A stretch of 64,000 nucleotides of DNA. It comes from Serratia liquefaciens ATCC 27592 (lineage in GTDB: Bacteria > Pseudomonadota > Gammaproteobacteria > Enterobacterales > Enterobacteriaceae). Numbering within the stretch: the first letter of the stretch is position 1; each line of letters begins with the position of its first letter. The position numbers were made by a program, and so were the translations under genes. The notes beneath the pieces were generated by a model, which had not been told where the DNA came from, did not search any database, and saw only the letters and a list, made by a program, of their open reading frames with translations. This document shows, in pieces, positions 38,041 through 58,710 of the stretch. The stretch lies in assembly GCF_000422085.1 (NCBI RefSeq), contig NC_021741.1, forward strand, positions 1,984,001 to 2,048,000. Reading direction: 5' to 3'.

Positions 38041-38073
38041 GTCTGGTGTCAGAGAACAGGGTGAGGAGAGTTT

Positions 38074-40591: not shown

Positions 40592-41448
40592 TGAATCAGG
40601 ATCCGCGAGCCATAGGCGCTCAAATTCGTATGAAATTGCCACACTTGACGCCACTAGAAAGAAAAGTCGTCGAGGCGATCACCTCTAAAAATGATTTCTC
40701 CGAGCAAACTTCACTAAAAGAAATTGCGCTGGAGAATAATGTTTCCGAGGCCATGATTGTTAAATTAACGAAAAAATTAAACTTTTCAGGGTTTAGAGAT
40801 TTCAGAAGCAGTTTGATCTATTACAACTATTCTGAAGTGGCAAATTTACATGCGGAAATTGAACCGGGAGACTCGTCGGAAAAATTGCTTGAAAAAGTAT
40901 TTCGGACGTCAATTCAGGCAATAGAAGAAACCTTATCTATTGTCGATGTTTCGGCATTTAACCGGGCTGCTGACATTTTGTTTAAAGCTAGGCACATCGA
41001 TTTATATGCTGTCGGTGGCTCTGCTGCCGTCGCAAGAGATCTTTCGCACAAATTGCTGAAAATAGGCATTAAAACGACGGTCTACGATGATGCACATATC
41101 ATGCTGATGTCAGCGGCAGTCTTGTCTGACGATGATGCGGTGGTGGCAATCAGCCATTCCGGTGCCACCCGCGCGGTGAATGAACCGATTAAACTGGCAG
41201 TCCGCAACGGAGCCAAAGTTATCGCCATCACCAATTACGCCGAGTCGCCCATTGCGCGTAATGCGCACGTGGTGCTCAATTCAACCTCTCAGGGATCGCA
41301 CTTGCTCGGGGAAAACGCTGCCTCACGTATCGCCCAGTTAAATATTCTGGATGCCTTGTTCGTGGCGATTGCGCAGAAGGACCTAAAGACAGCGGAGAAG
41401 AATCTGATGAAAACCCAGCAGGCGGTTCAGGACCTTCGGGAATACTAG
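40591..41448 (+). CDS. RpiR-family transcriptional regulator
   Basis: The 285-residue protein has an N-terminal RpiR helix-turn-helix (LTPLERKVVEAITSKNDFSE, TSLKEIALENNVSEAMIVKL) and a C-terminal SIS sugar-phosphate-binding domain (IDLYAVGGSAAVARDLSHKL, DAVVAISHSGATRAVNEPIK). It presumably senses a sugar phosphate made by this operon and controls it. Genes on both sides touch it, so it is part of the same transcript. Confidence 0.93.
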   Translation: MNQDPRAIGAQIRMKLPHLTPLERKVVEAITSKNDFSEQTSLKEIALENNVSEAMIVKLTKKLNFSGFRDFRSSLIYYNYSEVANLHAEIEPGDSSEKLLEKVFRTSIQAIEETLSIVDVSAFNRAADILFKARHIDLYAVGGSAAVARDLSHKLLKIGIKTTVYDDAHIMLMSAAVLSDDDAVVAISHSGATRAVNEPIKLAVRNGAKVIAITNYAESPIARNAHVVLNSTSQGSHLLGENAASRIAQLNILDALFVAIAQKDLKTAEKNLMKTQQAVQDLREY

Positions 41449-41449
41449 A

Positions 41450-42322
41450 ATGGGTAAAATTTTAGTCACGGGTAGCCTTCATTACGACATCGTGATCCAT
41501 GCGCATCACCGGCCGGAAAAGGGCGAAACAGTCATCGGAAGCGGGTGTTCGTATAAATTCGGCGGTAAGGGCGGCAATCAGGCCGTTGCTGCGGCGAAAG
41601 CGGGCGCGCAGGTGGGCTTTGTCGGTGCCGTGGGCGCAGATACGCAGGGGGAATTCCTGCGCGCTGTGCTTGATGAAAACGGCATCGATAATCGCTTTGT
41701 GACGGTGAATGAGAGCGTAGCCTCCGGTATGAGTGTGGCACTGATGGACGCTGAGGGAGATTACGGCGCAGTGGTAGTCTCCAACGCGAATAATCACATT
41801 GATGTCGCACAGTTTAATGATGACCTGTTGTGGCAACAGGTTGAGATGTTGCTGTTGCAAAATGAGGTATCTGAAGCAGTTAATCTGTCGGCCGCGAAAC
41901 AGGCAAAACAGCGTGGGATCCGCGTTTGTCTGAATGCCGCACCGGCGCGAGCATTGTGTGCCGAGATGCAGTATGCGGTTGATCTGCTGGTGGTGAATGG
42001 CGTTGAAGCTCGTGATCTGAGTGGTATTCCGGTCAATAATTTATCCGATGCATGCATGGCGGCTGAATTGCTCAGCCAGCATTATCCGGCTGTGATTGTG
42101 ACGGCAGGTGAACATGGCGTGGCCTGGTGTGAGGCTGGAGACCGTAGCCAGTCGATGCCTGCCGAAAAAGTAGAACTTGTGAGCACTCACGGTGCCGGTG
42201 ACTGTTTTATGGGCACCTTATGCACTTCAATTCTTCAACACGAATCGCTTGGGAGTTCTGTAGCAAAAGCCAATCGAGCTGCGGCCGCCCATGTTTCACG
42301 TAAGTCGACAGCTATAAACTAA
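41450..42322 (+). CDS. Ribokinase-family sugar kinase
   Basis: The 290-residue PfkB-family kinase starts 1 base after the regulator stop. Motifs are GSLHYDIVIHAHHRPEKGET, FGGKGGNQAVAAAKAGAQVG (ribokinase-type GGKGANQAVAAA) and the anion-hole/catalytic SLSTHGAGDCFMGTL-like segment VSTHGAGDCFMGTLCTSILQ, where the usual GAGD is intact. It phosphorylates the sugar brought in by the ABC importer. The C-terminus is slightly short (ends HVSRKSTAIN), possibly trimmed at the element edge. Confidence 0.91.
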   Translation: MGKILVTGSLHYDIVIHAHHRPEKGETVIGSGCSYKFGGKGGNQAVAAAKAGAQVGFVGAVGADTQGEFLRAVLDENGIDNRFVTVNESVASGMSVALMDAEGDYGAVVVSNANNHIDVAQFNDDLLWQQVEMLLLQNEVSEAVNLSAAKQAKQRGIRVCLNAAPARALCAEMQYAVDLLVVNGVEARDLSGIPVNNLSDACMAAELLSQHYPAVIVTAGEHGVAWCEAGDRSQSMPAEKVELVSTHGAGDCFMGTLCTSILQHESLGSSVAKANRAAAAHVSRKSTAIN

Positions 42323-42415
42323 CTTTGCCAGCGCAATCGAGAAGGTAGCCATACGACTCAGGCCGACCGGCTGCGCGGGCTGCAGAGCAACTGAGCGGGG
42401 GGGGGCTTTTGGTTT

Positions 42416-42776
42416 GCTCAAGTGCAAGAATGTGAAAGCCTGGCAGTTCGCAGGGATGTCCGCAGGCACGCTCAAGAATCTCCAGGCGCATCTGCGCTGG
42501 TGGGCTGAGAAGGAGGATAAGGCCGGAGTCATTCCAGCGAACAACACTCGTCTGGGTATTCCTGAGCGGCTGCATGCGACCAATGCTGACAAATCAAAGA
42601 CGCGGGGTGATGCCCATGCGCAGATGAGTCTGCAATTGCAGCAGGCCTTCGGGCTGCAGTGGGAAGAGTCCATCAAGTTCCAACCTGGCTATGCGGCGGT
42701 CCGAGGCGACCATATAGCACTCAAAAGGTGGATCCTCGGGGCAGTCGCTGACGCAGGCACCGCCCTCCTAAACTGA
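42416..42776 (+). pseudogene. Integrase fragment (SAM-like N-terminus plus start of catalytic domain)
   Basis: The frame reads KCKNVKAWQFAGMSAGTLKN, LQAHLRWWAEKEDKAGVIPA then MSLQLQQAFGLQWEESIKFQ PGYA..GDHIALK, which matches integrases that have PF12834/PF12835-type domains, up to just after the first active-site Arg region; here QWEES replaces the usual R-EES, so even that Arg is lost. The rest is missing, so it is inactive. A run of nine G at about 42,395 lies just before it. It is probably a relic of the enzyme that inserted this segment. Confidence 0.72.
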
Positions 42777-42786
42777 GGCGATTAGG

Positions 42787-43410
42787 TTAGTGATATAAAA
42801 ATAGGAGCGGACTTCCGAGGCATGCTTTTACTTGATCAATAGGTACGCACTGCGACCCCATTTTATCTAAGTACTTACTCGTTAATCGAGCAAGGCAAGA
42901 TGCGTTGACCATGGCTTGTTTGTATATTTTTGACTCTTTGGTCTTTGTTAGATTCAGCTCCTCCACTAAGCCAAAGCCCGTTTGAAATGAAGATTCCAAA
43001 TCTCTATTTACGTCCATCGCAAACTGATATTTGTCCCAGCATGACATATATTCAAGCGGAGCATGCGGAGAATCGCTATGGAGTGACAGTATCGTTCTTA
43101 GATTTAAGTCGCCGATTATGAAAAAATACTCCGGCCTTGGAATATAGCCTATCGCATTGAGATAGCCGAGAAAGTAGGCTTGTTCGTACCGGCCTTCGAG
43201 GAAGTAGCTCTTTCCTCTGTTCTCCGCTTCGGCCGCTTGCTCAATATTGCCTCTCACGTTAATTGTCTTCTTGTAGATTTCTAATGTTTTTCTAAAATCC
43301 ATCCAATTAATAACAACATCTCCATTCCAATCTTCCTCAAAAGCATGAGCGCTGAATAACGCAGCGAAAAACAAGAGTGGATAAGCCAAATACACCAATT
43401 TTTTGATCAT
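42787..43410 (-). CDS. AT-rich exported protein of unknown function
   Basis: The 207-residue protein has a signal peptide (IKKLVYLAYPLLFFAALFSA, cleavage near AHA-FE). The mature part contains RGKSYFLEGRYEQAYFLGYL, which resembles a Sel1/TPR-like helical pair, and five cysteines. Its composition is AT-rich compared with the neighbours, a sign of transfer. I do not recognise a family. It lies alone at the right end of the clpP-inserted segment. Confidence 0.68.
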   Translation of the reverse strand: MIKKLVYLAYPLLFFAALFSAHAFEEDWNGDVVINWMDFRKTLEIYKKTINVRGNIEQAAEAENRGKSYFLEGRYEQAYFLGYLNAIGYIPRPEYFFIIGDLNLRTILSLHSDSPHAPLEYMSCWDKYQFAMDVNRDLESSFQTGFGLVEELNLTKTKESKIYKQAMVNASCLARLTSKYLDKMGSQCVPIDQVKACLGSPLLFLYH

Positions 43411-43504
43411 TACTTATTCCTTTCCGCCTTGCCTTTGACAATCAGTGTATCCACGCTGTTCCCATTAGCGCTACGATGACTGACAAGCAGATAGTTTAAT
43501 CTAC

Positions 43505-44770: not shown

Positions 44771-44815
44771 TTATTGCGTTGGTATGGCCCAAAATCAACG
44801 TCACCGGTTAAACAA

Positions 44816-44841
44816 AAAATCCACGCCGGGGCGTGGATTTT
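44816..44841 (-). terminator. Stranded original ychF terminator hairpin
   Basis: Perfect 11-base arms AAAATCCACGC / GCGTGGATTTT with a CGGG loop. The arms are identical to those of the hairpin at 57,535-57,560. This copy lies 23 bases outside the left repeat of the island, where the end of ychF would have continued before insertion. Confidence 0.75.
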
Positions 44842-44864: not shown

Positions 44865-44877
44865 TTAGACGTTGAAC
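44865..44877 (+). repeat. Left attachment site of the ychF island
   Basis: TTAGACGTTGAAC exactly repeats 57,619-57,631, the end of ychF. Flanking bases differ at once on both sides. Confidence 0.82.
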
Positions 44878-45261
44878 CGTGATTTTATTGTTATTGTATT
44901 TATATTTAACGTTTTTATTTTTATTAATTAATCTTATACTCATATTCGTACTCACTTTAGCTGATGCTACCAGCTGAGGCCAGTTATCACAGCTACAGCC
45001 AATTCTTGTTCACCCGGATTGTGTGGTACGACTTTTCTTTATCAATGAATTGTTTTGATGGGATTGTCGAGTATTCAATAAGTGGAAGTGTAGTTGTAAG
45101 CACTTTCACAGGAATATATCTTATTTGACAGAGAGATTTTTGCTGGTAACGGGCATTTCGAACGCGATTGATACGTCAATCGATGGAGAGCCCGGCCAGA
45201 GTCCTTTCAATGACCAGCAGGCAAAGATTTCTGATAATTTTAGCCAAAGAAGGGTAATGTA
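44878..45261. other. Left end of the island, gene-free
   Basis: These 384 bases contain an AT-rich tract, the paired arm-type repeats at 44,935-44,954 and the leader of the next gene. No gene is supported. Confidence 0.55.
44935..44954 (+). repeat. Left arm-type repeat pair
   Basis: TATACTCA and CGTACTCA start 12 bases apart. The same arrangement with the same spacing occurs near the right end at 57,469-57,488, 16 of 20 bases identical. This fits arm-type binding sites of the island integrase. Confidence 0.65.
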
Positions 45262-46557
45262 ATGTCAGATATTAATCCACAGGATGCTGCACATATTTTC
45301 CCCCAAGATCGGGAAGCGCTGTATCACTTGGTCTGGCGTGAGCCTGCGGAGCGTATAGCTGCCCTGTATGGCATTAGTACGGATTTACTGGCGAAACAAT
45401 GCAGTGAAATGCGTATACCCAGGCCGCTTGCGGGTTACTGGAAAGCGCTGGCGAAAGGGATTGCACCTGCAATCCCCGAGCTACCAGCTCTGAAAAAGGA
45501 TAAGGTGGTGAAGGCGCTTGAGAATAGCAACTCACCAGTGCAACCTTCCACCACTGCGTTACCAAAACCAGTACTTTCCGTAACCCGAAAGCAAGCTCCT
45601 GTTACAGGGAATGGCTATGGGTTAATAAATGATCTCAAAACATATCTGCCGGTCTCCTCGGTTACAGAAGATGGCTATTACAAGCCTACGAAAAAGAAAT
45701 TATTGGATCTCAACGTTTCTGATACGGGATTTGATAGTGCGATAGAGTTCCTGAGTAGATTCTTTGATGCCCTGGGAAATAAGGGATACCGGGTTACGTT
45801 GGATGCACCGGGAGAAAGGCTACATCGTGCGGATATTGATATTAAGGAAGATTCGAAAGAGGGTGGGTATCGCTGGGGCAATCTATGGCGGCCTTATACG
45901 CCAAGTATTATTTGTATTGGGGATATGTACTTTGCGTTTAGTCTTGCTGAAATGACGGAGTATGTTCCAGCGAAAAAAGTCAAGAATCGCTATGTACGTG
46001 ACGAACAGATGGGGAGATGGATACGGGGAAGAAATAGTGAACCTTTTCTTCACGTATCGAAACATACCTTGCCTACTGGGCGATTTCTGTTGCAGCTTTA
46101 CTCACCTTATACTTCCGCAAAATGGTTACTTCAGTTCCGGCAGACAAAACAATGTGGATTAATTAGTCAGATCCCTAAGATGATTTCGGCAATGCTACAG
46201 GCTGTTCCGTTAATTTCAAAGCAACTAGAACAGGCCAGAATTGAAGCTGAGGAGTGGCGCATTCAGCGTGAGCGGGAACAAGCCATATACTTGGAAAAGA
46301 AGCGGATAGAGCAGGCGGAGGAAGCGCGCAGTGCCAGTCGTACTGAGCTGAAATCCATTATTGCCCAGTGGGCAGAAGACAAACGGCTGGAGCAGTTTTT
46401 TTACGAAGCAGAGATGGATGCAGCAATGCTTGATAACCAGCAGAAGATACAGGTCATGGAACGCCTGCAACTTGCCCGTCAGTTCCTGTCTGACGATACG
46501 GCAATTGAGCGGTTGTTGAAGTGGAAAACACCAGGAGAGTGGTTAAACAAAGGATGA
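45262..46557 (+). CDS. Uncharacterised 431-residue island protein
   Basis: Residues 17-65 (REALYHLVWREPAERIAALY, GISTDLLAKQCSEMRIPRPL, AGYWKALAKG) form a helix-turn-helix-like segment with the PrPxxGYW motif that I have seen in many genomic-island proteins. The middle has no known domain; residues 335-375 are a charged coiled coil (EEWRIQREREQAIYLEKKRI). The function is unknown. It is encoded between the left attachment site and the Wadjet regulator, convergent with the regulator, and could be an accessory or a separate defence or regulatory gene. Confidence 0.78.
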   Translation: MSDINPQDAAHIFPQDREALYHLVWREPAERIAALYGISTDLLAKQCSEMRIPRPLAGYWKALAKGIAPAIPELPALKKDKVVKALENSNSPVQPSTTALPKPVLSVTRKQAPVTGNGYGLINDLKTYLPVSSVTEDGYYKPTKKKLLDLNVSDTGFDSAIEFLSRFFDALGNKGYRVTLDAPGERLHRADIDIKEDSKEGGYRWGNLWRPYTPSIICIGDMYFAFSLAEMTEYVPAKKVKNRYVRDEQMGRWIRGRNSEPFLHVSKHTLPTGRFLLQLYSPYTSAKWLLQFRQTKQCGLISQIPKMISAMLQAVPLISKQLEQARIEAEEWRIQREREQAIYLEKKRIEQAEEARSASRTELKSIIAQWAEDKRLEQFFYEAEMDAAMLDNQQKIQVMERLQLARQFLSDDTAIERLLKWKTPGEWLNKG

Positions 46558-46689
46558 GTCTATTTCCTCGTCACGGTGTTAAATTAATGTGGATTGAACC
46601 TGATAACCCAAAACCGACATTTGGCCCGGATCGGCCAACTTAGCTCTGAGATACTTCGAATATTCTACAGAACTTTTTCTTACTAGAAA

Positions 46690-47691
46690 TCAGCTTGGGT
46701 CAAATCCGAGTTCGTGGGCAAGTTTATTTGAGTCAGTTATGAAGGCAAATACTGGCCAAGCCTTAGGATTTTCATTAACAGCATGATTGTATTCAGCTTC
46801 ACTTGCAGGAATGCGATTGTCGATCAGAAAATAACCGATTAGCGGTTTGCGAAGCGCGAACCGTTTGGTGATTCCATCCTGATCCAACTCATAATCGATC
46901 ACGATTAATGCCTGCTGATCTTGGCTGAGGTGTGGATTAGGCCTCAGCTCAAGTTCGATCATCTGCTCCCACTCAGTATCAGGATTAGATGGGACACCTC
47001 TACAACGTTCAAAGGCAGGTGCATTATCGCCCCAGTTCTGCGTGTTTTTCGAGGGTTTAACTATTTTTGGGGTGCTTTTGAAACGACCAATGAGAAAATC
47101 GCGATACGCCATATTATCCCAACAAAAAGCGCGTACGTGGTAACGGTTATTAACGAACGCGATAGCCGTGGGTGTTAGCCGTCGGCTACGTCCTTTAGGT
47201 GAATTCATTGTTGCTACTACAGCTTCAATAGACTGCTGGTGCTCAATGGCCGAGAGTAATCGGGCCAGAACACGCAAATTATGATGGCGTAACAGCATGG
47301 GCATTTCAGTGGTGTGTGCAGTTATGGGCGGCGCGAACTCTTCAATGGCCTGCCACTGCAAATCTGCCTTGGATAATAACACCGGCTCAAACCCTTCAGT
47401 AGGTTGATAGTAGGGAATACCTAACTGATATGGCTTTAGCGCCTTAGGCGAGAGTTGCTGGTAAAGCTTTATATCTTTCTGAGCCTGAGGGCGTGAGATA
47501 CCAAAGGTTTCCATCAGCATGGTCGTTGTTAGCCGACGCTCCCAGAGCAACTGACGCTCAATGTAACACAAACGCAGCCACTGAGGGTGCGAGTATGCCC
47601 CAGTCTCTAGCCGCTTACTGGCTAAATCCATTACGGAGACTGTTTGCGTGTCTGATGCGATCGCGGGTTTCATGTACTGTGAGTACTGCAT
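46690..47691 (-). CDS. WYL-domain regulator (BrxR/CapW-like)
   Basis: The 333-residue protein starts with a winged helix (WLRLCYIERQLLWERRLTTT, MLMETFGISRPQAQKDIKLY) followed by a WYL domain (TPTAIAFVNNRYHVRAFCWD, MAYRDFLIGR) and a C-terminal WCX-like region. This is the layout of BrxR/CapW repressors that control phage and plasmid defence loci. It is divergent from jetA across 168 bases containing two perfect palindromes, so it very likely controls the Wadjet operon. Confidence 0.9.
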   Translation of the reverse strand: MQYSQYMKPAIASDTQTVSVMDLASKRLETGAYSHPQWLRLCYIERQLLWERRLTTTMLMETFGISRPQAQKDIKLYQQLSPKALKPYQLGIPYYQPTEGFEPVLLSKADLQWQAIEEFAPPITAHTTEMPMLLRHHNLRVLARLLSAIEHQQSIEAVVATMNSPKGRSRRLTPTAIAFVNNRYHVRAFCWDNMAYRDFLIGRFKSTPKIVKPSKNTQNWGDNAPAFERCRGVPSNPDTEWEQMIELELRPNPHLSQDQQALIVIDYELDQDGITKRFALRKPLIGYFLIDNRIPASEAEYNHAVNENPKAWPVFAFITDSNKLAHELGFDPS

Positions 47692-47764
47692 ATAGTGGCC
47701 CTTCTAATATCTTAAATGTGCAGACATCCGAAAGTATAAGTTGGCACTGTATAAATATCTACTA

Positions 47765-47781
47765 CCATTATTTAATAATGG
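47765..47781. promoter_or_regulatory. Palindromic operator candidate upstream of jetA
   Basis: CCATTATT-T-AATAATGG is a perfect inverted repeat with 8-base arms, 79 bases before the jetA start and 74 bases from the regulator start. It is the best candidate WYL-regulator site. Confidence 0.6.
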
Positions 47782-47784
47782 GGT

Positions 47785-47797
47785 GTATAAAATATAC
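47785..47797. promoter_or_regulatory. Second palindrome upstream of jetA
   Basis: GTATA-AAA-TATAC is a perfect inverted repeat right after the first palindrome. It also resembles a -10 region, so operator and promoter may overlap. Confidence 0.45.
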
Positions 47798-47859
47798 ATA
47801 TGGCTAAGTTGTACTTTCAGGTGAACTCAAAAAGTAACGAAAGAGCGTAGGACGATTCC

Positions 47860-49266
47860 GTGAGCTTTAACACACTCAATACCAATCTGTTTAAACCGAT
47901 CTCGGGCGAGAATGGACGCTCGATGCTTGCGTTATTAGTCGATCTCGATACTTTCTTGGATCCGACACAACTGGTAGATGAACCTACGCCGCAACAGGTA
48001 CGGGTCTTTCTACGAGACTACATCGCCAATAAGAATTTGTGCCTTGAGATAGCGTCGGTTGAGGCAACGATAGGAAACCCCGCTCTGGAACATTATGTCT
48101 ATAACCGGCTGCGTGATACGGGGTGGATTCGAGAAGAGCAGGAGAGCGGGTATCGATACGTTGTTTGGATGGCGCAAGATGCGCGCAGGCTGTTGAACTT
48201 CCTTGGCAATATGAGTGCTGAGCATCCCTCGTTAGGTGTGGTGTGTCTGGCGGTACGCTCGAACCTTTCTGAAGTGGTTAAAGACCCAACCAACGGATCG
48301 TTAGTGCGCAAAGCGGCTGATGACATGGAGGATTTCTTAAATCGACTCAGAGCTCTCGTGGGCAATATCCGCGAAATCCACCATGCGATTAGCGGTGGTT
48401 CCGTCCAAGGTAGTGGCCATTTCACTTTTTACTTTGAAGAATACTTGGCCGAACTCTTTCTACCCAATATTGAGAAACTCTCCCTGAAAGGAAACCCCAA
48501 CCTTCATGCCAGTAAAATTCGTAAGCTAGTTAGCGATATCCGTTTCAGCTCAGAGCGCCTAGAAGCATGCGCTAGAGCCTATAAGCGTGATGATATTTCT
48601 AATCCTTCGGTTCAGCTTGTGGAAGCAGATCTAGATCGATTGAGCAAAGCGTTTGACGGAATTGCTCCACTGTTCAAGAAAACGCAGGACTATGCTCGTC
48701 GTATAACCCGGCGGATGTATGAGAAGATCAAGTATACCGTGCATACCCCAAGTAATATGGGGCAACAGGTTCAGGCGCTGCTTGAGCGCATCGGGAGTGA
48801 AGCCTTGTTAGTCTCATTACCTAGCCCGTTGATCGGTGAAGAACTCCTTGCTGATTGCCGGTTGGCCACACCCAAGGCAAAGTCAATACTGCCTGTTCCG
48901 ACGGTGCGCAGACAGCCAAAACCGTTGTGGGAAAAACGGGCATACAACCAGCTCAAACAAGAACATATCAGTTTCCAGAAATGCGACCCTACACGTGTTG
49001 CCAACTTCATTGAATCGAATCTTGGAGAGCGAGTACAGATGACCACGGATGATCTTAGGATCGATACCGCTGATGAAATGATGGCAGCGCTTCATTTGCG
49101 CCTTTTGGCACAAGGTATACCGAAAACTCATCCACTTTTTTCTCTGCAGTCCATGTACTGCGTTGAGTTTGATGAAGGGGAGTGGACGGACCTTAAACAG
49201 ATGGCCGGTCGTCGCCTGAGAATCCGTCGAATCGTCGCTATGGAGAAACGCACACATGACGAGTGA
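47860..49266 (+). CDS. jetA: Wadjet protein JetA (MksF-like kleisin)
   Basis: The 468-residue protein starts at a GTG with AGGA upstream. It has the N-terminal winged-helix and long helical region expected of the MksF/MukF-like subunit of Wadjet (MLALLVDLDTFLDPTQLVDE near residue 22; a helical middle; RRITRRMYEKIKYTVHTPSN near 280). In Wadjet, JetA bridges the two JetC heads and binds JetB. Its stop overlaps the jetB start by 11 bases. Identity relies on position, size and partners more than on a single motif. Confidence 0.9.
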   Translation: MSFNTLNTNLFKPISGENGRSMLALLVDLDTFLDPTQLVDEPTPQQVRVFLRDYIANKNLCLEIASVEATIGNPALEHYVYNRLRDTGWIREEQESGYRYVVWMAQDARRLLNFLGNMSAEHPSLGVVCLAVRSNLSEVVKDPTNGSLVRKAADDMEDFLNRLRALVGNIREIHHAISGGSVQGSGHFTFYFEEYLAELFLPNIEKLSLKGNPNLHASKIRKLVSDIRFSSERLEACARAYKRDDISNPSVQLVEADLDRLSKAFDGIAPLFKKTQDYARRITRRMYEKIKYTVHTPSNMGQQVQALLERIGSEALLVSLPSPLIGEELLADCRLATPKAKSILPVPTVRRQPKPLWEKRAYNQLKQEHISFQKCDPTRVANFIESNLGERVQMTTDDLRIDTADEMMAALHLRLLAQGIPKTHPLFSLQSMYCVEFDEGEWTDLKQMAGRRLRIRRIVAMEKRTHDE

Positions 49267-49927
49267 GATTGCGCTCAGAGAACTGAAAGATATCGAGGCA
49301 AAAACATCTGCTGACTACGCCGATAGCTTACGGAACACGGCGGCATACCTACTGCAGAAGCAATGGGTATGGAAGGGAAAACGCGGCCAAAAAGAGCACT
49401 TCAAGTTGTGTGAGGATAATCTGGCTTATTTTAACAAGCTTTTTGATGGGTTGGATATGGGGTGGTACTACGATCGTAACTTCGGCTATGCGGGGATTTT
49501 ACCGCGTGGTTCCGGTAAGCAACTGGATATCACCTCTACGCTGTTCCTGCTCATTCTACGGAAAATGTATGACGCTGAAGCGTCGATGGGACGTACGGAG
49601 CTTGGGTGTGTAACACCGCCAACGGTCGAGCTTCTTAATCAGTACGAACACGTCAGGGGGGAGATGCCCCCCATAACAGAAACCAATAATGCCCTGGAGA
49701 ACCTAAGGAAGAAGGGAATTATTGAGCTCGGAATTAAAGACCCCGATACCAAACTCCACGAGTTGACCGTTCTCCCTAATATTACCCGTGTGGTCGATCA
49801 AACCTACGTGGGCATGCTTAACCGCTTTATGGATAGTTACACACCTGAATCTGCGTCTGGCGAAGCGGTTTACGAAGGAACTGATGATCTTGAGACACTG
49901 GAGGTCTACGATGACAGTGCAGAATAA
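49256..49927 (+). CDS. jetB: Wadjet protein JetB (MksE-like)
   Basis: The 223-residue protein has a LLQKQWVWKGKRGQKEHFKL segment, a GYAGILPRGSGKQLDITSTL FLLILRKMYD (in parts) strand-helix typical of DUF4194/MksE proteins, and an acidic C-terminus. It is the KITE-type winged-helix subunit that binds JetA. It overlaps jetA by 11 and jetC by 17 bases, indicating coupled translation. Confidence 0.92.
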   Translation: MTSEIALRELKDIEAKTSADYADSLRNTAAYLLQKQWVWKGKRGQKEHFKLCEDNLAYFNKLFDGLDMGWYYDRNFGYAGILPRGSGKQLDITSTLFLLILRKMYDAEASMGRTELGCVTPPTVELLNQYEHVRGEMPPITETNNALENLRKKGIIELGIKDPDTKLHELTVLPNITRVVDQTYVGMLNRFMDSYTPESASGEAVYEGTDDLETLEVYDDSAE

Positions 49928-52900
49928 CCCCATACAAGCACATATTCTTCATAATGTGGTGTTGGCGCAGTGGTATCTGTTTGAACTGGAGACGATCCAT
50001 CTCAATGCTCCAGCCACGCTAGTATCAGGCGAAAACGGAGCGGGAAAAACAACGATTTTTGATGCGATCCAGTTTGTTCTGATGGGGGGGGATCAACGTA
50101 AAACCCGCTACAACTCTGCCTCTGAAACCAAAACCTCTGGGCGTTCTGCGCGTAGTTATGCGCTGGGCGAGTTCAAAGAAAACGATGCAAAGAGTTGCCA
50201 ACGTGAGAATGCCAATACTTACATTTTCTTAAACTGGTACGATAATCATCAATGTCCTTACGCTTTTGGACTGTCTGTTTATGCCAACAGTCAGTCACCA
50301 AACATTGAGACCCGCGGGCATATCATTAAAGGCCGCCACATTACTGAAGCTGATTTACTGTCCGGGGATGACGCCTTTCTACCATGGCGTGACTTTGTTG
50401 ACCGCATGAAACAGGATGCCAAAGAGCGTCATGGTGCGATGAGCTATGAGTTGCTTGACAGTGCGCGGACGATACGTGAAAAAATGGCTGAGGCGATGTC
50501 GGTTAATCAGACGCGCAGCGCCAAAATTGAACCTGATTTATTGGTTAAGACATTATCAAATGCGTTACAACTGAAAATGGACAGCCCGATTGATCCATTT
50601 ATCAGGGACTTCATTCTTCCTCCCGACCTCATTGAAACCTATCAATTGCGCGAAGATCTTCTTGAGCACCAGCGTATTGAGGCGGAAATCGCACGTGCCG
50701 AGAGCCACAAAAATGCGCGCGAGTTACTGATTGCCGAAGCGAAGAAGCTTACCCGGCATTACGCCAATGCCCACCATGCTCTTTGGGTTTCGCAAGAGGC
50801 CGATACTGTTCGGCTCAATGAAGAACTTGGCCGCACAGAAGATGCTCAAATAGCTGCGCAAGAGCGCCAGACAGCAGCTAAACGCACCATTGACAGAGAA
50901 GAGCCACGACTGCCGGAGCTGAAACAATGTCGTGATGATGCCCTGATCGCGTGGCAAAATTCTGATGCTGCAAGTCTGAGTAGAGCCGTTGATGCTGCAA
51001 AAAGCGCCGTTTCTAAATCCACAAACAGTCTTACCAACCGAATATTTTCACTGCAAAATGCTGTGCGTGAAGTTATCCGTCAACGATTTCCTGACACGCT
51101 GGGTATCCAGAGTTTCGAGCTATTAGCCCGGCACTGGGCGACATCCGTGGACATTCTCAATCGGGCAGGCATTGAGAGCCTCTCAGCATCGGAACATGAG
51201 AATACGCTTAAGGTAACCGATAAACTTAAAAGCGCAAAAACATTACTGGACGAGATAGCTGAACGTATAGAAGTGGCTGATAAAAATGTGAGCCACGACT
51301 TAACACAAACCATGCATGAATGTAAGGCCTTGCAGGTGCGTATTGAACGGCTGAGAAAGGGACTTTCGGACATCAATCCGGCGACGGCTAAGGTCATCGA
51401 ATTACTCAAACAAGAGAGAATAGAATCCATGCCCGTCTGTGACCTCTGTGAGATCGCTGATAGAGACTGGCAAGAAGCAGTGGAGTCGTACTTGGGTCCG
51501 AATCGCGAAGCACTGGTGGTGAGTGTACGTGATTTTGACCATGCATTGGAAGTGTACGAAGTTGCACAGAAGCGAGAGCCGCAACTCAAACGAGTACGCA
51601 TGATTAACCCTGATCATGCTTTAGCCGCCAACAAAGCGCCCACTGAAAGAATGGTTTCAAAGCTGATCGAAACCAGCGATCCGATCGCTCGTGGTTTTAT
51701 GAACGTCATTCTGGATAGAACTAAGATGGCGGCAACGCGCGATGAACTACGAAGAGAGCGCAAAGCGCTAATGGCATCAGGCCTTGCGACCGGTAGTGGA
51801 ACGGTGGGCGGTACCGCTCATATTCGCGGGTTATTGATGGGGAAACAGGCTAAAGCTGAGCAGCTTAAGCTCCTGGAGCATGAACGGGATGTGCTCGCAC
51901 AACGGCTCTCTGGCGTTGAGAGATCAGCACAAACGCTGAGCAGGCTTAACCGCAACTGGGCTGGGCTATCTACATCTATTGTGGAGGGCTCATCGTCCGT
52001 ACGGGAAAATAGTATCCGCCTGATGCAAGATAAAAAAGCATTGTCTGCCGCTCAGGAACAGTTGAAACCGCTGACATCGAAAGATGAACAGCTCAAAGCC
52101 GCAAAGGCGCAGGCTGACGACAATTATGAAGCATGTAATACGGCGATCATCAATGCCACGGCCGAACAAAAGAACGCTATTGCAACGTTAAATAGCTTGA
52201 ACACCGAGATTGAAAGCCTCTCAAAAAATAGGGACGAGGCAGAACGAATCCGCAGTGAAACAGAAAAATCTCCTATACACAATACCGCCAAAGCAGATGA
52301 ACGCTGGCAAACTTATGAGCAGAAGTTTGGGGGCGAAGAAGGATGCTATTCCCTGATTCGAAACAAAGCCCAGAATGAGGCTCAGGTTGAACGGGAGAAG
52401 GCGCTCAATACACGTGGAGATCTGTATTACAAGGTCGTTAGATTCACGACAGACTTTGCAGAGGATATAGCGAATCGTCAGGCGCTTCTTGAAGCCGCAA
52501 AAACTGATAACGTGAATACAGAGGCGTACCACTTTATTGAGGCAGATTGTACGGAATGGGTTGAGCGTATCCTGGCAGCACAGCTTTTAGTGCATCGCCA
52601 GGCGGCCCGGGAAGCTGCTGAACAGATGGAAAAAAACTTTCGAGGTATCATAGTAGGGGAGCTTCAAAGCCGCTTTGAGCAGATGAGATATACCTTCAAT
52701 CAACTCAATAACTTGCTCAAGAAAGTCCCATTTCACGACCACATCTACAGCTTCCACTTCAAGGTTCGCGAGATAGAGAGCTTGCGCACCGTCTACGAAT
52801 ACATTACGACTGCAGATAGAGAAGAGACCGAGTTAGTTGGGACAATGTTTGAAACAGCATCAGAACATCCTGCTATAGACCTGTTGAAAGAGGCATTGCT

Positions 52901-53423
52901 CAGTGGTGACGATCTAATTAATGAGATCAGTGATTATCGCAGTTTCTTCACCTATGACATGAAGATGCGTAACCCTGACACCGGGACTGAGCGCAGCGTG
53001 GCAGATATGCAAAGCACAGGTTCAGGCGGAGAGCAACAAACACCAGCGTATATTGCGCTGGCTGCGAGTTTTATGAACGTTTACAAGATTAGTGGTCATT
53101 CAGATCGAGGGGCGTCTTTGGTACTCCTTGATGAAGCGTTCAATAACATGGATGGTGGCAATGCGAGCGCAGCAGTGGCCTTTCTCAAAGAAATCGGGTT
53201 GCAATTACTGATTGCTGCCCCGCCAGAAGTGACCCTGAAAATTGGTAAAGAGATGGATCAAATTTATACCATTTGCCGTGAGGACAGAGATGTGGTGATT
53301 GACCACACGCAGATTTTCGAGGCAGGGCAGGAGCTTATAGACCAACGTAATCCAGTTTACCATCCAGAGCTTGTGGCTGAACGCGCTGCTGAATTGAAAG
53401 CTAAAGCCGAGATGGTTGAATGA
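49911..53423 (+). CDS. jetC: Wadjet protein JetC (SMC-like ATPase)
   Basis: I start at 49,911 (MTVQNNPIQAHILHNVVLAQ); the frame is open 41 codons further up inside jetB but lacks similarity. The 1170-residue protein has Walker A SGENGAGKTTIFDAI (about 39-53), a long coiled coil, a hinge-like region near 510-570 (DRDWQEAVESYLGPNREALV), a second coiled coil, the ABC signature STGSGGEQQTPAY near 1034 and Walker B SLVLLDEAFNNMD near 1069. JetC dimers extrude DNA loops using ATP and recognise small circular DNA for cleavage by JetD. Confidence 0.96.
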   Translation: MTVQNNPIQAHILHNVVLAQWYLFELETIHLNAPATLVSGENGAGKTTIFDAIQFVLMGGDQRKTRYNSASETKTSGRSARSYALGEFKENDAKSCQRENANTYIFLNWYDNHQCPYAFGLSVYANSQSPNIETRGHIIKGRHITEADLLSGDDAFLPWRDFVDRMKQDAKERHGAMSYELLDSARTIREKMAEAMSVNQTRSAKIEPDLLVKTLSNALQLKMDSPIDPFIRDFILPPDLIETYQLREDLLEHQRIEAEIARAESHKNARELLIAEAKKLTRHYANAHHALWVSQEADTVRLNEELGRTEDAQIAAQERQTAAKRTIDREEPRLPELKQCRDDALIAWQNSDAASLSRAVDAAKSAVSKSTNSLTNRIFSLQNAVREVIRQRFPDTLGIQSFELLARHWATSVDILNRAGIESLSASEHENTLKVTDKLKSAKTLLDEIAERIEVADKNVSHDLTQTMHECKALQVRIERLRKGLSDINPATAKVIELLKQERIESMPVCDLCEIADRDWQEAVESYLGPNREALVVSVRDFDHALEVYEVAQKREPQLKRVRMINPDHALAANKAPTERMVSKLIETSDPIARGFMNVILDRTKMAATRDELRRERKALMASGLATGSGTVGGTAHIRGLLMGKQAKAEQLKLLEHERDVLAQRLSGVERSAQTLSRLNRNWAGLSTSIVEGSSSVRENSIRLMQDKKALSAAQEQLKPLTSKDEQLKAAKAQADDNYEACNTAIINATAEQKNAIATLNSLNTEIESLSKNRDEAERIRSETEKSPIHNTAKADERWQTYEQKFGGEEGCYSLIRNKAQNEAQVEREKALNTRGDLYYKVVRFTTDFAEDIANRQALLEAAKTDNVNTEAYHFIEADCTEWVERILAAQLLVHRQAAREAAEQMEKNFRGIIVGELQSRFEQMRYTFNQLNNLLKKVPFHDHIYSFHFKVREIESLRTVYEYITTADREETELVGTMFETASEHPAIDLLKEALLSGDDLINEISDYRSFFTYDMKMRNPDTGTERSVADMQSTGSGGEQQTPAYIALAASFMNVYKISGHSDRGASLVLLDEAFNNMDGGNASAAVAFLKEIGLQLLIAAPPEVTLKIGKEMDQIYTICREDRDVVIDHTQIFEAGQELIDQRNPVYHPELVAERAAELKAKAEMVE

Positions 53424-53424
53424 T

Positions 53425-54663
53425 ATGAACTCTTATGTTGAGAAGTTCATCAATCAATTGATCAAGAAGATAGATAAACCAGAAGGTGTGGAACTTGAGT
53501 GCAGGATACGTATCACAGATCACGCCTATCGTTGGTACTTCGCCCTCAATAATAGTACCAAAACGGCGCTGCATAAGACGTTGGAATCCATTGCATACTT
53601 GAATATCCACTATCAGCGTAAAGTCGCGCTGGGAGCGTTTAAACATATTGAGTATATCCAGATCGTTGATGGCTACAGATTAATGGATAGTCAGGGAGTT
53701 ATACCACAGGCTGATGAAATCAAAGTTTCATTTCGGCATTTAGAGACAACGGTGTTCAATGTACCTTGGTGGGATAATACGAAGCTGGAGATTGCCAAGG
53801 AATGGTCGAGCAACAAGACGTTTTGTGGTGTGAATCGCAACCAGGCAGACCGACTTTTTGATGCAATGAAAGTTATTGAGTGGATCGTTCAACTGCCTGT
53901 CTCTGAGAATGTTCCCGATATTCGGACCCTCAGTGCCATGTTGTATGGCAACTCCAAGAAGTTAGAATGTAAGAGTTTTTCCGGTCTTATTCGAAAGTTG
54001 ATGTTGCCGCATATTGACGATGATGTTGTGGATTTGCTTGACGATGGGGTTAAGCTGCTGGAGTATTTTGGGATTAGTAAATACCCAATACCAATGCGTT
54101 TCAAAGCCAATGGGTTGTTGCATTGCAGGGGGATTATCGATTTATCTGCACTCCACTACGGAATCGGTGTTTCCCCGGATGAAGTCAAAGGCATTGTGTG
54201 GGGACAACGGCCACCCTATGTGCTTTTCATTGAAAATCGTGCTAGTTTCGAGCGGTATGTGCGCGAAATTGATGATTTTGGTGTGATTATTTACACCGCC
54301 GGCTTCCCGCCGCGCTCTTGGGTACATGTAATAGAGATCATTATCGCTGAACTGCGTATGGAGATACCGATTTACCATTGGGGTGATCGAGATGCCGGTG
54401 GCTATCGTATTCTTGCATTTTTGGCGAAGCGACTTGATATTGATATTCAGCCATATCTGATGGGGGTGGAGGCTGAAGCATTGACTCAGGCTGATGATGA
54501 GCTCGTTGATAAACCTGTAGTCGAATTAATGCAGGCGCTGGAGTCAGCAAAGCACTATCCAGCTATTTTAGCGCTTTATAGAGATCTAGCGAAACTCCAA
54601 ATTAAGAATCTACCTTGGATCGAGCAGGAGCAGATAGCCCCTGTTAGCCCTCGGAAATATTGA
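53425..54663 (+). CDS. jetD: Wadjet protein JetD (TOPRIM nuclease)
   Basis: The 412-residue protein starts 1 base after jetC. The N-terminal half matches DUF3322 (HYQRKVALGAFKHIEYIQIV region is ordinary, SKYPIPMRFKANGLLHCRGI precedes the core). The C-terminal TOPRIM-like domain (DUF2220) has a Glu in VLFIENRASFER (about 268) and the D-x-D in YHWGDRDAGGYRILAF (about 319-321), the residues needed for DNA cleavage. It cuts plasmid DNA trapped by the JetABC motor. All four genes look intact. Confidence 0.94.
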   Translation: MNSYVEKFINQLIKKIDKPEGVELECRIRITDHAYRWYFALNNSTKTALHKTLESIAYLNIHYQRKVALGAFKHIEYIQIVDGYRLMDSQGVIPQADEIKVSFRHLETTVFNVPWWDNTKLEIAKEWSSNKTFCGVNRNQADRLFDAMKVIEWIVQLPVSENVPDIRTLSAMLYGNSKKLECKSFSGLIRKLMLPHIDDDVVDLLDDGVKLLEYFGISKYPIPMRFKANGLLHCRGIIDLSALHYGIGVSPDEVKGIVWGQRPPYVLFIENRASFERYVREIDDFGVIIYTAGFPPRSWVHVIEIIIAELRMEIPIYHWGDRDAGGYRILAFLAKRLDIDIQPYLMGVEAEALTQADDELVDKPVVELMQALESAKHYPAILALYRDLAKLQIKNLPWIEQEQIAPVSPRKY

Positions 54664-54880
54664 AAGTTCTCCCTATTCGCTGATATTTCATGTCCTTATG
54701 TCGGGATCTCAAAATTGCGTGGAACTAAAAGGGGTGTGCTTACAATAGCACTTCAAAAGGATATGCCTACCTCCAATACTCATTTGCAAATGATGATGTG
54801 TGTCAGGCGGAGATTGAGGGAGTGAAAAAGAGCTCCCTGTAACTAATTGTGCTGACCTGCCCCAGTATTAAATACAACCG

Positions 54881-55705
54881 TTAGTTAGTAATGTCGGTTT
54901 GTTTATCTTCACATTTTCCATTCCGCCACCGTGCTGCAAACTCTGATGGCGTCTGATAATTCAGTGCTGAATGTGGACGACACTCGTTATAATCCTGCCG
55001 CCAGTTATTAATGATTTTCCTTGCATGAACGATATCGCTGAACCAGTGCTCATTCAGACATTCATCGCGAAATCGTCCGTTAAAGCTCTCAATAAATCCG
55101 TTCTGCGTTGGCTTGCCCGGCTGGATTAAGCGCAACTCAACACCATGCTCAAAAGCCCATTGATCCAGTGCGCGGCAAGTGAACTCCGGCCCCTGGTCAG
55201 TTCTTATCGTCGCCGGATAGCCCCGGAACAGTGCAATGCTGTCCAGAATTCGCGTGACCTGAACGCCTGAAATGCCGAATGCGATGGTAATTGTCAGACA
55301 CTCCTTCGTGAAGTCGTCCACACAGGTCAGGCACTTGATCCTGCGACCGGTGGCCAGTGCGTCCATGACAAAATCCATCGACCAGGTCAGGTTGGGCGCC
55401 GCTGGGCGGAGCAGAGGCAGACGTTCTGTTGCCAGCCCTTTACGACGTCGCCTGCGTTTTACGCCCAGCCCGCTCAGATGATAAAGGCGGTACACGCGCT
55501 TATGATTAACATGAAGGCCTTCACGGCGCAGTAACTGCCAGATGCGGCGGTAGCCAAAACGCCTGCGCTCCAGTGCCAGCTCAGTGATGCGCCCTGATAA
55601 ATGCGCATCAGCCGCCGGACGCTGAGCCTCATAGCGGCAGGTCGACAGGGACAAACCTGTAAGCTTGCAGGCACGACGTTGCGACAGACCGATCGCATCA
55701 CACAT
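54881..55705 (-). CDS. IS3-family transposase, OrfB (DDE catalytic part)
   Basis: The 274-residue protein has an HTH_21-like lead ([20 protein letters not shown]), and the rve integrase core with Asp in [11 protein letters not shown], Asp in [12 protein letters not shown] and Glu in [20 protein letters not shown]. All three catalytic residues are present. The true product is probably an OrfAB fusion made by -1 frameshifting near the end of orfA, as in this family; the frame continues upstream to 55,735. Confidence 0.94.
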
Positions 55706-55737
55706 AAACTCAACGGCTTCCCGCTTCTGGTCTGTCG

Positions 55738-56001
55738 TCAGTACTTTCGCCCCAGTGCCACCTGAAGTGCCTCCTTATCCAGCATGGCTTCGGCAAGCAG
55801 CTTCTTGAGTCTGGCGTTCTCTTCCTCAAGCAACTTCAGGCGCTTAACCTCGGGTACTTCCATGCCGCCATACTTCTTGCGCCAGGTATAAAAGGTGGCG
55901 TCGGAAATGGCGTGCTTGCGGCAGAGCTCACGGGCAGAAACCCCGGCTTCAGCCTCGCGGAGAATACTGATGATCTGTTCGTCGGAAAAACGCTTCTTCA
56001 T
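55738..56001 (-). CDS. IS3-family transposase, OrfA (DNA-binding part)
   Basis: The 87-residue protein has the HTH_Tnp_1 domain ([40 protein letters not shown]) followed by a leucine-zipper stretch ([20 protein letters not shown]). It ends 32 bases before the orfB ATG, with the overlap region needed for frameshifting. The N-terminus is nearly identical to the remnant at 1319-1380. Confidence 0.94.
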
Positions 56002-56228
56002 GGGGGTGTCCTCATGTGGCTTATGAAGACATTACTAACATCGCGGTGTATTAATCAACGGGGAGCAGGTCAGTTATTATCGCTTCATTGCAAACAGCAC
56101 GGCACGTTAAGTTAAAACAAAAGGAAAAAATAATTTTTGCAGCCAGGTTCAATCTATGTCCGCTTCTGGCACAAAGTGGACCCTGAGGAATGAGTTCTAT
56201 TCTCGTGGTTCACTAAGTGCAGCAAGTT

Positions 56229-57404
56229 CTACTCGAATCCTGCTACCCATTTGTCCAACATATCAGCCCACTCCTGCATCATCACTTTACGCTCATCAAG
56301 ATAAGTCGCATGGTTGTATGTGCGACGAACATTGTTGGTGTCAGCATGAGCAAGTTGGGACTCAATAGCATCAGGTCGATAGCCCATCTCGTTTAAGCGG
56401 GTACTTCCTGTGGTTCTGGTTGCATGTGGGCTATAAGTACCGCTCCAGCCGAGGCTTTTAAGTAGTTGACGCAGAGAGTGTGATGTCATTGGACCTAGCG
56501 GATTATCCCTGCCTGGAAAAAGGTGCTGTCGATGCCAGGTTAATCCCTGTAGCGTTCTGAGCATGTTGACGGCTTGGGAGGGGAGGGGAATAACATGTTC
56601 TCTGCGGGCTTTCATCCGCGCTGCCGGAATGGTCCACAGGGCGTTATCAAGATCGAATTCTGTCCATTCAGCTTCGGTGGCTTCTGCAGGACGCGCTAAT
56701 GTCCACCACATGAGCCACATGCAATAGTTAACCTGGTATGAGCCACGACTGTTATCAAAACAGCTTAATAGCTTCCCGATTTGTTGTGGGTTTAATGCCT
56801 GTTTGTGCTGTGTCTTATTCGCCGGAATCGCCTTACGCACTGGCCAGACAGGATCGCTATCTGCCCTGAGCGTCGCCACCGCCAGTTCAAAAACGGATGA
56901 AATGGTGCGGCGGGCTTCAGCGGCAACGGTCGGAGCGCCGCGCTTAGCCGTTTCCTGAAGAATTTTAAGAATGTGATGTGGAGTGATCTCTCTGACTGGG
57001 AGCTTACCGATTGCAGGGAAAACCACTCGTTCGAGCATATCCAGTCGCCGCGTTTTGGTAATTTCGGCCCAGTCTTTCATCTGCAACCACTCTTTAGCGA
57101 TCAGCTCAAAGGTGTTGGATGCGTCGTTGACCTTGCGGATCTTATCTAACTGGCGAGTCTGTGTCGGGCTAACTCCATCCGCGACTTGTTTACGCGCTTG
57201 CTCACATTTCTCCCGAGCTTCGGCAAGTTTGACCGTCGGGTACTCACCCAACGCGAACATGCTGGATTTGCCGTTGAGTTTAAACCGATAGCGCCATGCC
57301 TTTTTACCGTTGGGTTTTACTTCGAGGTAGAGACCATTGAAGTCATTGAGTCGATAGAGTTTTTCTTTCGGCTTAGCAGTGCGGCATTGCGTATCAGTGA
57401 GCAT
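56229..57404 (-). CDS. int: Tyrosine integrase of the ychF island (P4-like)
   Basis: The 391-residue protein has the DUF4102 N-terminal arm-binding domain (LNDFNGLYLEVKPNGKKAWR, YRFKLNGKSSMFALGEYPTV), a SAM-like core-binding domain and a catalytic domain. Active-site residues are visible: Arg in WWTLARPAEATEAEW, the H-x-x-R in SPHATRTTGSTRLNEM, His in SQLAHAD and the Tyr in VRRTYNHATY. It is intact and reads away from ychF, with its start 215 bases from the attachment core, the usual layout for P4-type elements. Such enzymes normally use tRNA genes; here the target is ychF. Confidence 0.95.
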   Translation of the reverse strand: MLTDTQCRTAKPKEKLYRLNDFNGLYLEVKPNGKKAWRYRFKLNGKSSMFALGEYPTVKLAEAREKCEQARKQVADGVSPTQTRQLDKIRKVNDASNTFELIAKEWLQMKDWAEITKTRRLDMLERVVFPAIGKLPVREITPHHILKILQETAKRGAPTVAAEARRTISSVFELAVATLRADSDPVWPVRKAIPANKTQHKQALNPQQIGKLLSCFDNSRGSYQVNYCMWLMWWTLARPAEATEAEWTEFDLDNALWTIPAARMKARREHVIPLPSQAVNMLRTLQGLTWHRQHLFPGRDNPLGPMTSHSLRQLLKSLGWSGTYSPHATRTTGSTRLNEMGYRPDAIESQLAHADTNNVRRTYNHATYLDERKVMMQEWADMLDKWVAGFE

Positions 57405-57436
57405 AGCGAGTCCTCGTCTATTTCTTATACCGCTAT

Positions 57437-57444
57437 TGTACTCA
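57437..57444 (+). repeat. Additional GTACTCA copy near the integrase
   Basis: TGTACTCA, the same unit as in the paired arm-type repeats, lies 32 bases before the right pair and 33 bases upstream of the integrase start. Confidence 0.5.
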
Positions 57445-57468
57445 CCTAAAATGAAGATGAAAACTGAT

Positions 57469-57488
57469 TGTACTCATGTCTGTACTCA
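57469..57488 (+). repeat. Right arm-type repeat pair
   Basis: Two TGTACTCA units 12 bases apart, matching the pair at 44,935-44,954 in order, orientation and spacing. They lie between the integrase gene and the attachment core, as expected for arm-type sites; they could also let the integrase repress its own promoter. Confidence 0.65.
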
Positions 57489-57534
57489 TTTTTGACTGTG
57501 CTGTTATGAGATGAGTTGAGACATTATGAAAAGA

Positions 57535-57560
57535 AAAATCCACGCAATTGCGTGGATTTT
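57535..57560 (-). terminator. Element-borne terminator hairpin for ychF
   Basis: Perfect 11-base arms AAAATCCACGC / GCGTGGATTTT with an AATT loop lie 58 bases beyond the ychF stop. The arms are identical to the hairpin at 44,816-44,841; the loops and the sequence between hairpin and attachment core differ. Read from ychF, it ends in T-rich sequence (TTTTTCTTTT). Confidence 0.75.
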
Positions 57561-57618
57561 ATAGACTTTTTCGATTTTCATGAGATTCGATGAAACCTCA
57601 CGAGACAACAAATTTTAT

Positions 57619-57631
57619 TTAGACGTTGAAC
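57619..57631 (+). repeat. Right attachment site of the island, inside ychF
   Basis: TTAGACGTTGAAC covers the stop codon and last codons (phenylalanine-asparagine-valine) of ychF and repeats 44,865-44,877. Confidence 0.82.
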
Positions 57632-58710
57632 AAGAAGTTCATCACGTCACCGTCTTTAACGATGTAGTCTTTACCTTCTGAACGCATCTTGCCGGCTTCT
57701 TTGGCACCTTGCTCACCCTTGTAGGTGATGAAGTCTTCAAAAGCGATGGTCTGGGCGCGGATAAAGCCTTTTTCGAAATCGGTGTGGATCTTGCCGGCTG
57801 CCTGCGGGGCGGTAGCGCCAACCGGGATGGTCCAGGCGCGGACTTCTTTCACACCGGCGGTGAAGTAGGTCTGCAGGTTCAGCAACTCGTAACCGGCGCG
57901 GATCACGCGGTTCAGACCCGGCTCTTCCAGGCCCAGTTCCGCCATGAATTCTTCGCGGTCTTCGTCTTCCAGCTCGGCGATATCGGATTCTACTGCGGCG
58001 CACACGGCAACCACAACCGAGCCTTCGCCCGCAGCGATTTCACGCACTTTGTCCAGGTACGGGTTGTTTTCGAAACCGTCTTCGTTGACGTTGGCGATGT
58101 ACATGGTTGGTTTCAGCGTCAGGAAGCTCAGGTAGCGGATTGCCGCTTTGTCTTCTTCGGACAGATCCAGCGCACGCAGCATGCCGGCGTTTTCCAGCTG
58201 TGGCAGGCATTTTTCCAGAGCTGCCAGTTCCGCTTTCGCGTCTTTGTCGCCGCCTTTGGCTTTCTTCTGTACGCGGTGGATCGCGCGTTCGCAGGTGTCG
58301 AGATCCGACAGCGCCAGTTCGGTATTGATGACGTCGATGTCATCAGCCGGGTCAACTTTGTTGTTAACGTGGATGATGTTGTCGTTTTCGAAGCAGCGAA
58401 CCACGTGGCCAATCGCTTCGGTTTCGCGGATGTTGGTCAGGAACTGGTTACCCAGACCTTCACCTTTGGACGCGCCCTTGACCAGGCCGGCGATGTCGAC
58501 GAATTCCATGGTGGTCGGCAGGATACGCTGTGGCTTGACGATCTCGGCCAGCTGGTCCAGACGCGGATCGGGCATCGGCACCACACCGGTGTTAGGTTCA
58601 ATGGTGCAGAACGGGAAGTTGGCTGCTTCGATACCCGCTTTGGTCAACGCGTTGAACAGGGTGGATTTGCCTACGTTAGGCAGGCCGACGATACCGCATT
58701 TGAATCCCAT
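57619..58710 (-). CDS. ychF: Obg-family ATPase YchF
   Basis: The 363-residue protein has the P-loop [20 protein letters not shown], the switch [12 protein letters not shown], the altered specificity loop IANVNEDG (N-x-x-E, which favours ATP over GTP), and a C-terminal TGS domain ending [12 protein letters not shown]. It binds ribosomes and modulates stress responses. Length and C-terminus are normal, so the island inserted at its very end has restored the reading frame. The island supplies its last bases and its terminator. Confidence 0.97.

Follow-up and report, generated by a model that had tools for sequence, protein, structure and literature searches.

Integrative elements that enter the chromosome at the end of a protein-coding gene include the SGI1-type islands at the 3' end of trmE/mnmE, SXT at prfC, and the elements whose integrases target dusA and guaA. 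The island analysed here lies in a 64-kb window (the whole stretch of DNA under analysis, positions 1,984,001 to 2,048,000 of contig NC_021741.1) of Serratia liquefaciens ATCC 27592 and carries a jetABCD operon of the Wadjet type. It resembles these systems in that the integrase targets the end of a conserved gene, in many cases one linked to translation, and that the gene is restored upon integration, and it differs from them both in the target, which is the 3' end of ychF, and in that no conjugation or mobilisation gene is found among the eight island proteins scanned. Elements at the ends of protein-coding genes are referred to in general terms as a known kind (PMC12884075; this and the following sources are represented here by excerpts). 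The islands at the 41 defence hotspots of E. coli described by Hochhauser et al. 2023 (PMC10121019), 18 of which are in tRNA loci, are likewise integrase-only and carry swappable defence systems, Wadjet-carrying elements favouring hotspot #37; in its main text the word 'ychF' occurs 0 times, and ychF may be among its non-tRNA hotspots. Pneumococcal satellite prophages integrate beside ychF (PMC10383233, PMC8637289, PMC6375853), but according to these excerpts they do so in different bacteria, at an intergenic site upstream of the gene and with a 26-bp attachment (att) sequence. Other excerpts mention ychF among phylogenetic markers or expressed genes (PMC13046425, PMC4289293, PMC1796617, PMC2978726) or list YchF in a gene table of two Staphylococcus prophage sequences (PMC8460829). 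Within the excerpted open-licence literature searched, the pneumococcal upstream site aside, no description was found of the 3' end of ychF (engD) as an integration site.

The segment of 12.8 kb from position 44865 to 57631 of the window is very probably an integrase-type genomic island, which entered at the end of ychF by means of an integrase from a ychF-specific clade of P4-type tyrosine recombinases. It is bounded by two copies of TTAGACGTTGAAC (44865-44877 and 57619-57631, both on the forward strand), which lie in the same orientation and are the only exact copies in the window, and to which a search allowing up to 2 mismatches adds none. The right copy coincides with the last 13 nucleotides, codons F-N-V-stop, of ychF (57619..58710, reverse strand), which encodes the redox-regulated ATPase YchF of 363 aa (TIGR00092, E=2.8e-175), and the DNA native to the downstream side of ychF starts to the left of the far copy. 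A 13-bp repeat alone is weak evidence, as 166 distinct 13-mers recur on the forward strand of the window; with up to 2 mismatches 1.02 matches are expected by chance, so that the copy number of TTAGACGTTGAAC is not significant by itself. The first-pass annotation had proposed this repeat, its coincidence with the exact end of ychF, and the presence between its copies of an intact P4-like integrase and a complete jetABCD, and all of this was borne out: the integrase is an open frame of 391 aa with three integrase domains and each Jet protein matches its PADLOC type I model over nearly its full length. The segment further contains an IS3-family insertion sequence (IS), a WYL-domain regulator and a 431-aa protein. 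A tRNA or transfer-messenger RNA gene as the target was rejected, no such gene being present in the 64-kb window.

It is the empty site in relatives, together with the occurrence of the same core in other carriers, that proves the boundaries positionally. YchF was searched for in 60 genomes (that of the window and 59 relatives), and the DNA downstream of ychF was compared at 30 loci (the window's own and 29 others). Four of these 29 (G015, G001, G008 and G012, all of the same genus) hold an empty site, in which the alignment begins with the first core base and continues from window position 44877 downward, with identities of 89.5% over 1383 bp, 78.9% over 679 bp, 81.2% over 659 bp and 76.1% over 752 bp, respectively. 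In these four genomes the end of ychF thus runs into the DNA left of 44,865, as the first-pass annotation had anticipated for Serratia lacking the island. At most of the remaining loci the DNA beyond the hairpin that follows ychF is dissimilar to the left flank of the window and speaks neither for nor against integration. The left flank is itself uneven: positions 35700-43500 of the window, with sugar-transport-like genes, are absent from G015 between a RibD_C/TetR pair and a clpP-like gene, and therefore form a second variable region to the left of the island. Similarly, the native ychF flank contains a gene for a Fic-domain protein in G002 (L069, 9535-10137, by Pfam) and in G010 (L068, oriented 9430-10032, by eye), and is therefore variable within the genus.

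Other relatives carry material of a related kind at the end of ychF. An integrase 97% identical to that of the window occupies this place in G020, and broken or partial copies are found there in G006, G009, G017 and G010, of the same genus, and in G031, of another genus of the family. In G010 the 431-aa protein is retained in the segment at 84% identity, alongside an AbiJ-like gene and a fragment weakly resembling SIR2. In G002 an 8.3-kb segment with Lamassu-like/ABC-3C genes lies between two cores that differ at two bases and has no match to the window integrase. A different integrase, only 36% identical, stands at the same ychF end in G023 (L065, oriented 1111-17898), in an island with Rhs/VgrG-like open reading frames (ORFs; by eye) which is bounded by GTTTAACGTCTGA and GTTCAACGTCTGA and has two GTTYAACGTCTGA cores with a TGA stop; the ychF end is therefore used by more than one integrase, in G023 independently.

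The integrase of the window (56229..57404, reverse strand) is a full-length open frame of 391 aa, which scores above the gathering threshold for the arm-binding (Arm-DNA-bind_3), central and catalytic (Phage_integrase) domains of Pfam and below the cut-off for NF007246 (269 vs 434 bits), and in which the R/K/HxxR/H/Y context, which we take to be the tyrosine-recombinase motif, can be located. When about 85,000 genomes, one per species, were scanned with the integrase, 86 matching stretches were obtained, the best 80 of which correspond to 77 loci. In 48 of these 77 the integrase sequence lies directly downstream of ychF, with best-segment identities of 52-98%, while none of the 27 loci with an identity of 46% or less adjoins ychF. 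Two other loci above 52% have no ychF within reach, L101 because of a contig edge and L105 as the second copy of a tandem in Kosakonia, and L106 is counted among the 48 on account of a fragment of integrase next to ychF, the long copy being 7 kb further on. According to the record titles, the adjacent set covers more than 20 enterobacterial genera and the betaproteobacterium Dechloromonas (59%). The core GTTYAACGTYTRA, whose absence from other members of the family would, by the first-pass annotation, have refuted the reading, is matched at the end of ychF in 43 of the 48 adjacent loci (42 by script and L121, where the match is split, by inspection), and the remaining five depart from it at 1-2 positions. 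In 10 of the 23 carrier genomes searched the core recurs, in the same orientation, 4.7-69.5 kb away. The window integrase, directly downstream of ychF and with the core at the gene end, thus belongs to a ychF-specific clade. Since this family uses the same gene end in many enterobacteria, the end of ychF is a shared docking point and not an oddity, and the earlier description of it as an uncommon target does not hold, with 48/77 integrase loci adjoining ychF and the junction present in 627/5426 E. coli genomes. The clade is widespread and, in the literature searched, undescribed. All 453 phage records containing a relative of the integrase are less than 60% identical to it.

Tandem islands or scars occur in L105/L116 (Kosakonia sp. 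S29), and at the far ends of ychF islands (L186-L191) the DNA outside the core often resembles the start of another such island, integrase sequence following in L188 and L190. Just inside the far arm-type repeats (described below) of L183, L186, L187 and L188, which represent three genera, some 40 bp look by eye like the latter (3') half of a tRNA gene, which would suggest past recombination between these islands and an element that targets tRNA genes.

In E. coli the integrase is present in 628/5426 genomes, and the 627 just mentioned are those in which a query running from the end of ychF across the spacer into the start of the integrase has a coverage of at least 80%. Three chromosomal regions inspected among the 628 matches all show ychF followed by the integrase, one of them with Hachiman; two plasmid records (95-97%) contain the chromosomal ychF neighbourhood. 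For comparison with the window at the DNA level 25 members were chosen (22 of the 48 loci and three E. coli), over which the identity to the window is 80-97.5% for the integrase and 80-89% for ychF, the two being weakly correlated (Spearman 0.24, 325 pairs). Thus, E. coli RM14723 and the window share 97.5% of their integrase DNA and 84.7% of ychF, while two E. coli with 99.7% identical ychF genes have integrases of 91.8% identity, and the ychF genes of the three E. coli form one clade (100/100) whereas their integrases do not group. As judged from these disagreeing histories of integrase and ychF, the integrase evidently moves between genera.

The DNA between ychF and the integrase has a constant architecture. 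Among 26 members compared, namely the window, the three E. coli and 22 of the 48 loci, the integrase starts 214 bp after the ychF stop in 24, and the other two have spacers of 183 and 213 bp. Within this spacer the window contains three direct repeats of TGAGTACA (57437-57444, 57469-57476 and 57481-57488, reverse strand), at +175, +143 and +131 from the ychF stop, and repeats of this type recur at the same fixed places across the members compared; at least one is present in 42/48 adjacent loci. Two further repeats on the reverse strand, TGAGTATA at 44935-44942 and TGAGTACG at 44947-44954, lie inward of the far core at distances of 65 and 77 bp; of the 13 far ends examined, 12 contain one or more repeats of this kind, usually at these same distances. 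The window thus has all five at its two ends, out of a total of 10 in 64 kb on both strands. From their placement, the TGAGTACA-type repeats at both ends are probably the arm sites of the integrase.

A terminator-like hairpin borne by the island (57534..57560, reverse strand; z -4.3, 0/200 shuffles as good) lies about 58 bp after the ychF stop, with arms AAAATCCACGC-GCGTGGATTTT on the island side of the core. It is kept in 26/26 aligned sequences, with one mismatched pair in L098 and, by eye, paired changes in L093 and L132. The native terminator-like hairpin of ychF (44815..44840, reverse strand; z -3.6, 1/200 shuffles as good) has been moved to the far side of the island. Both hairpins would be expected to terminate transcription, and the island, which restores the last codons of ychF, probably also restores its terminator. 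The proposed course of integration is then that a circular attP, with the two arm-type repeats at 65 and 77 bp on one side of the core and the three at +131, +143 and +175 on the other, would be recombined by the integrase with the 13 bp that end ychF (on the gene strand, GTTCAACGTCTAA). As these 13 bp are also present in the island, the YchF protein sequence would stay as it was, a new terminator-like hairpin would be placed about 58 bp past the stop, and the native hairpin would be displaced to the far end.

The cargo of the window island is dominated by four genes on the forward strand: jetA (47860..49266; PDLC00454, 984 bits, residues 1-468/468), jetB (49256..49927; PDLC00486, 361 bits; DUF4194), jetC, encoding an SMC-like ATPase (49911..53423; PDLC00503, 486 bits, in scans that began at 49914, one codon short of the start), and jetD of type I (53416..54663; PDLC00528, 688 bits; JetD_C). 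As in type I Wadjet, JetA, JetB, JetC and JetD are all present and near full length against the PADLOC type I models, but the JetA variant is sparse. Among the solved structures JetC has only a marginal match to a solved JetC, and JetD has none. Searches with JetA and with the 431-aa protein scored about 8,000 candidates sharing most words with the query; they yielded 26 JetA homologues, the best of which (97%) is from Salmonella enterica. Separate searches found no JetA homologue in the 59 relatives or in 294 other Enterobacterales genomes, and 7 distant JetA matches on plasmids, of less than 60% identity; the JetA-JetB DNA has no match in the E. coli genomes. Divergent from the operon is the gene of the WYL-domain regulator (46690..47691, reverse strand; Pfam WYL), which is similar to BrxR (7t8k) over residues 33-291 of 333 (E=9.8e-26). 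Its similarity to the solved BrxR and CapW extends over most of its length and, like these regulators, it stands beside a defence operon, but it is divergent from Wadjet genes, whereas BrxR and CapW accompany BREX or CBASS. Because it is BrxR/CapW-like and divergent from jetA, its likely role would be repression of the jet operon, and jetABCD may work as a Wadjet plasmid defence under its control. The 431-aa protein (45262..46557, forward strand), which recurs in the ychF island of G010, has no family match in Pfam, PADLOC or NCBIfam and no relative among the solved structures; 337 homologues were found among the candidates scored, and its AlphaFold model is of low confidence (mean predicted local distance difference test score, pLDDT, 62; predicted template modelling score, pTM, 0.30).

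Wadjet is one of many cargos at the end of ychF. A scan of 109 ORFs from the first 10 kb of 18 of the 48 ychF-adjacent loci, made without a control set, was tallied per family rather than per island over the first 25 of 220 PADLOC and the first 25 of 73 Pfam families; models of Gabija, CBASS and type I restriction-modification, as well as DarT, were matched strongly, and so were non-defence enzymes and transporters. A closer scan of 10 chosen cargo proteins found a PADLOC match for 4 and none for 6.

Between jetD and the integrase lies the IS3-family element (about 54853..56072, reverse strand, ends set by eye), with a transposase ORF at 54881-55705 and a small ORF at 55738-56001. A 100% identical copy of about 1202 bp exists elsewhere in the genome, and its insertion into the island is therefore probably recent; a 138-bp stretch near the start of the window (1308-1445) also matches the element, at 91%. 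The gap ORFs between the island genes, outside the IS, do not exceed 54 aa, and among the gap ORFs scanned against Pfam only the transposase ORF matched. The hallmark genes of P4 are psu, delta, sid and the alpha primase, and none of them is found among the eight island proteins scanned (Pfam, NCBIfam), so that the island does not classify as a P4-like satellite. Nor, with no relaxase, type IV secretion, conjugation or mobilisation gene among the same eight proteins, does it classify as an integrative and conjugative or integrative and mobilisable element.

How far, then, does this body of evidence support a specific and still functional integration system? Several observations weigh against it. 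All three near-end TGAGTACA-type repeats are present in only 28/48 adjacent loci, the 13-bp extent of the crossover region is given by the junctions only, and half of the family is damaged, a match to the integrase over at least 380 aa in one piece being found in only 24/48 adjacent loci. An integrase 57.7% identical to that of the window resides on a Pseudomonas veronii plasmid, away from ychF, so that at about this level of identity the target is not constant. Among the scanned island proteins and the small ORFs in the gaps nothing resembling an excisionase was seen, and for this reason, together with the insertion of the IS3 element beside the integrase, the present mobility of the island is doubtful. 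On the conjugative plasmid of P. veronii (L193, 7640-9263) GGGTAC-type repeats, and no ychF core, are found upstream of the integrase, and a switch of target within the integrase clade is possible there. The island may nonetheless still be able to excise. The alternative that it integrated in the same manner and has since become fixed, an IS-hit resident locus lacking an excision factor, differs from our reading in present mobility alone and comes close to, if slightly short of, an even chance: the missing excisionase, the IS3 element and the broken or partial integrases at ychF in the five relatives named above speak for it, but the integrase still has its full frame, neither the two cores nor any of the five repeats is damaged, and a factor for excision could be supplied in trans by some other element.

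A different possibility is that the integrase module is resident at ychF and that the cargo is swapped by homologous recombination in the flanks rather than by repeated site-specific insertion. The constancy of ychF, spacer and integrase across loci would fit such an exchange, as would the tandem and scar-like arrangements and the fact that no other gene of the window island, except relatives of the IS3 element, was found within 10 kb in the 77 loci; yet it accounts poorly for precise empty sites, for precise second cores with arm repeats, and for an integrase tree that ignores host relationships, and we consider it unlikely. That the 13-bp repeat is coincidental and the true end elsewhere, for example to the left of 44865, is highly improbable. 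The recurrence of other 13-mers and the absence of about 35.7-43.5 kb of the window from G015 could be adduced in its favour, but four relatives join exactly at the core, and the native hairpin stands just outside the far core with arm-type repeats just inside it. A chance repeat was accordingly rejected, as contradicted by the empty ychF sites in relatives, and so was a larger island extending further left, the junction in those empty sites being at the core.

Site-specific integration at the end of ychF thus remains the preferred reading, and on balance we lean, if not strongly, towards its wider form, in which the 3' end of ychF would be an order-wide, so far undescribed docking site of the Enterobacterales, where a single integrase clade, actively spreading and equipped with a constant core-hairpin-arm module, keeps the gene of this translation-linked ATPase intact and shuttles interchangeable cargo (Wadjet, Gabija, CBASS, Hachiman, DarT and metabolic genes) among genera. 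The integrase and its compact att site are a candidate tool for the insertion of DNA at a conserved position without loss of the gene. The island is moreover a clear example of an element by which the final codons of the target gene and its terminator both seem to be replaced, and the end of ychF, which can be checked in any enterobacterial genome, is a predictable place for variable cargo, including defence systems.

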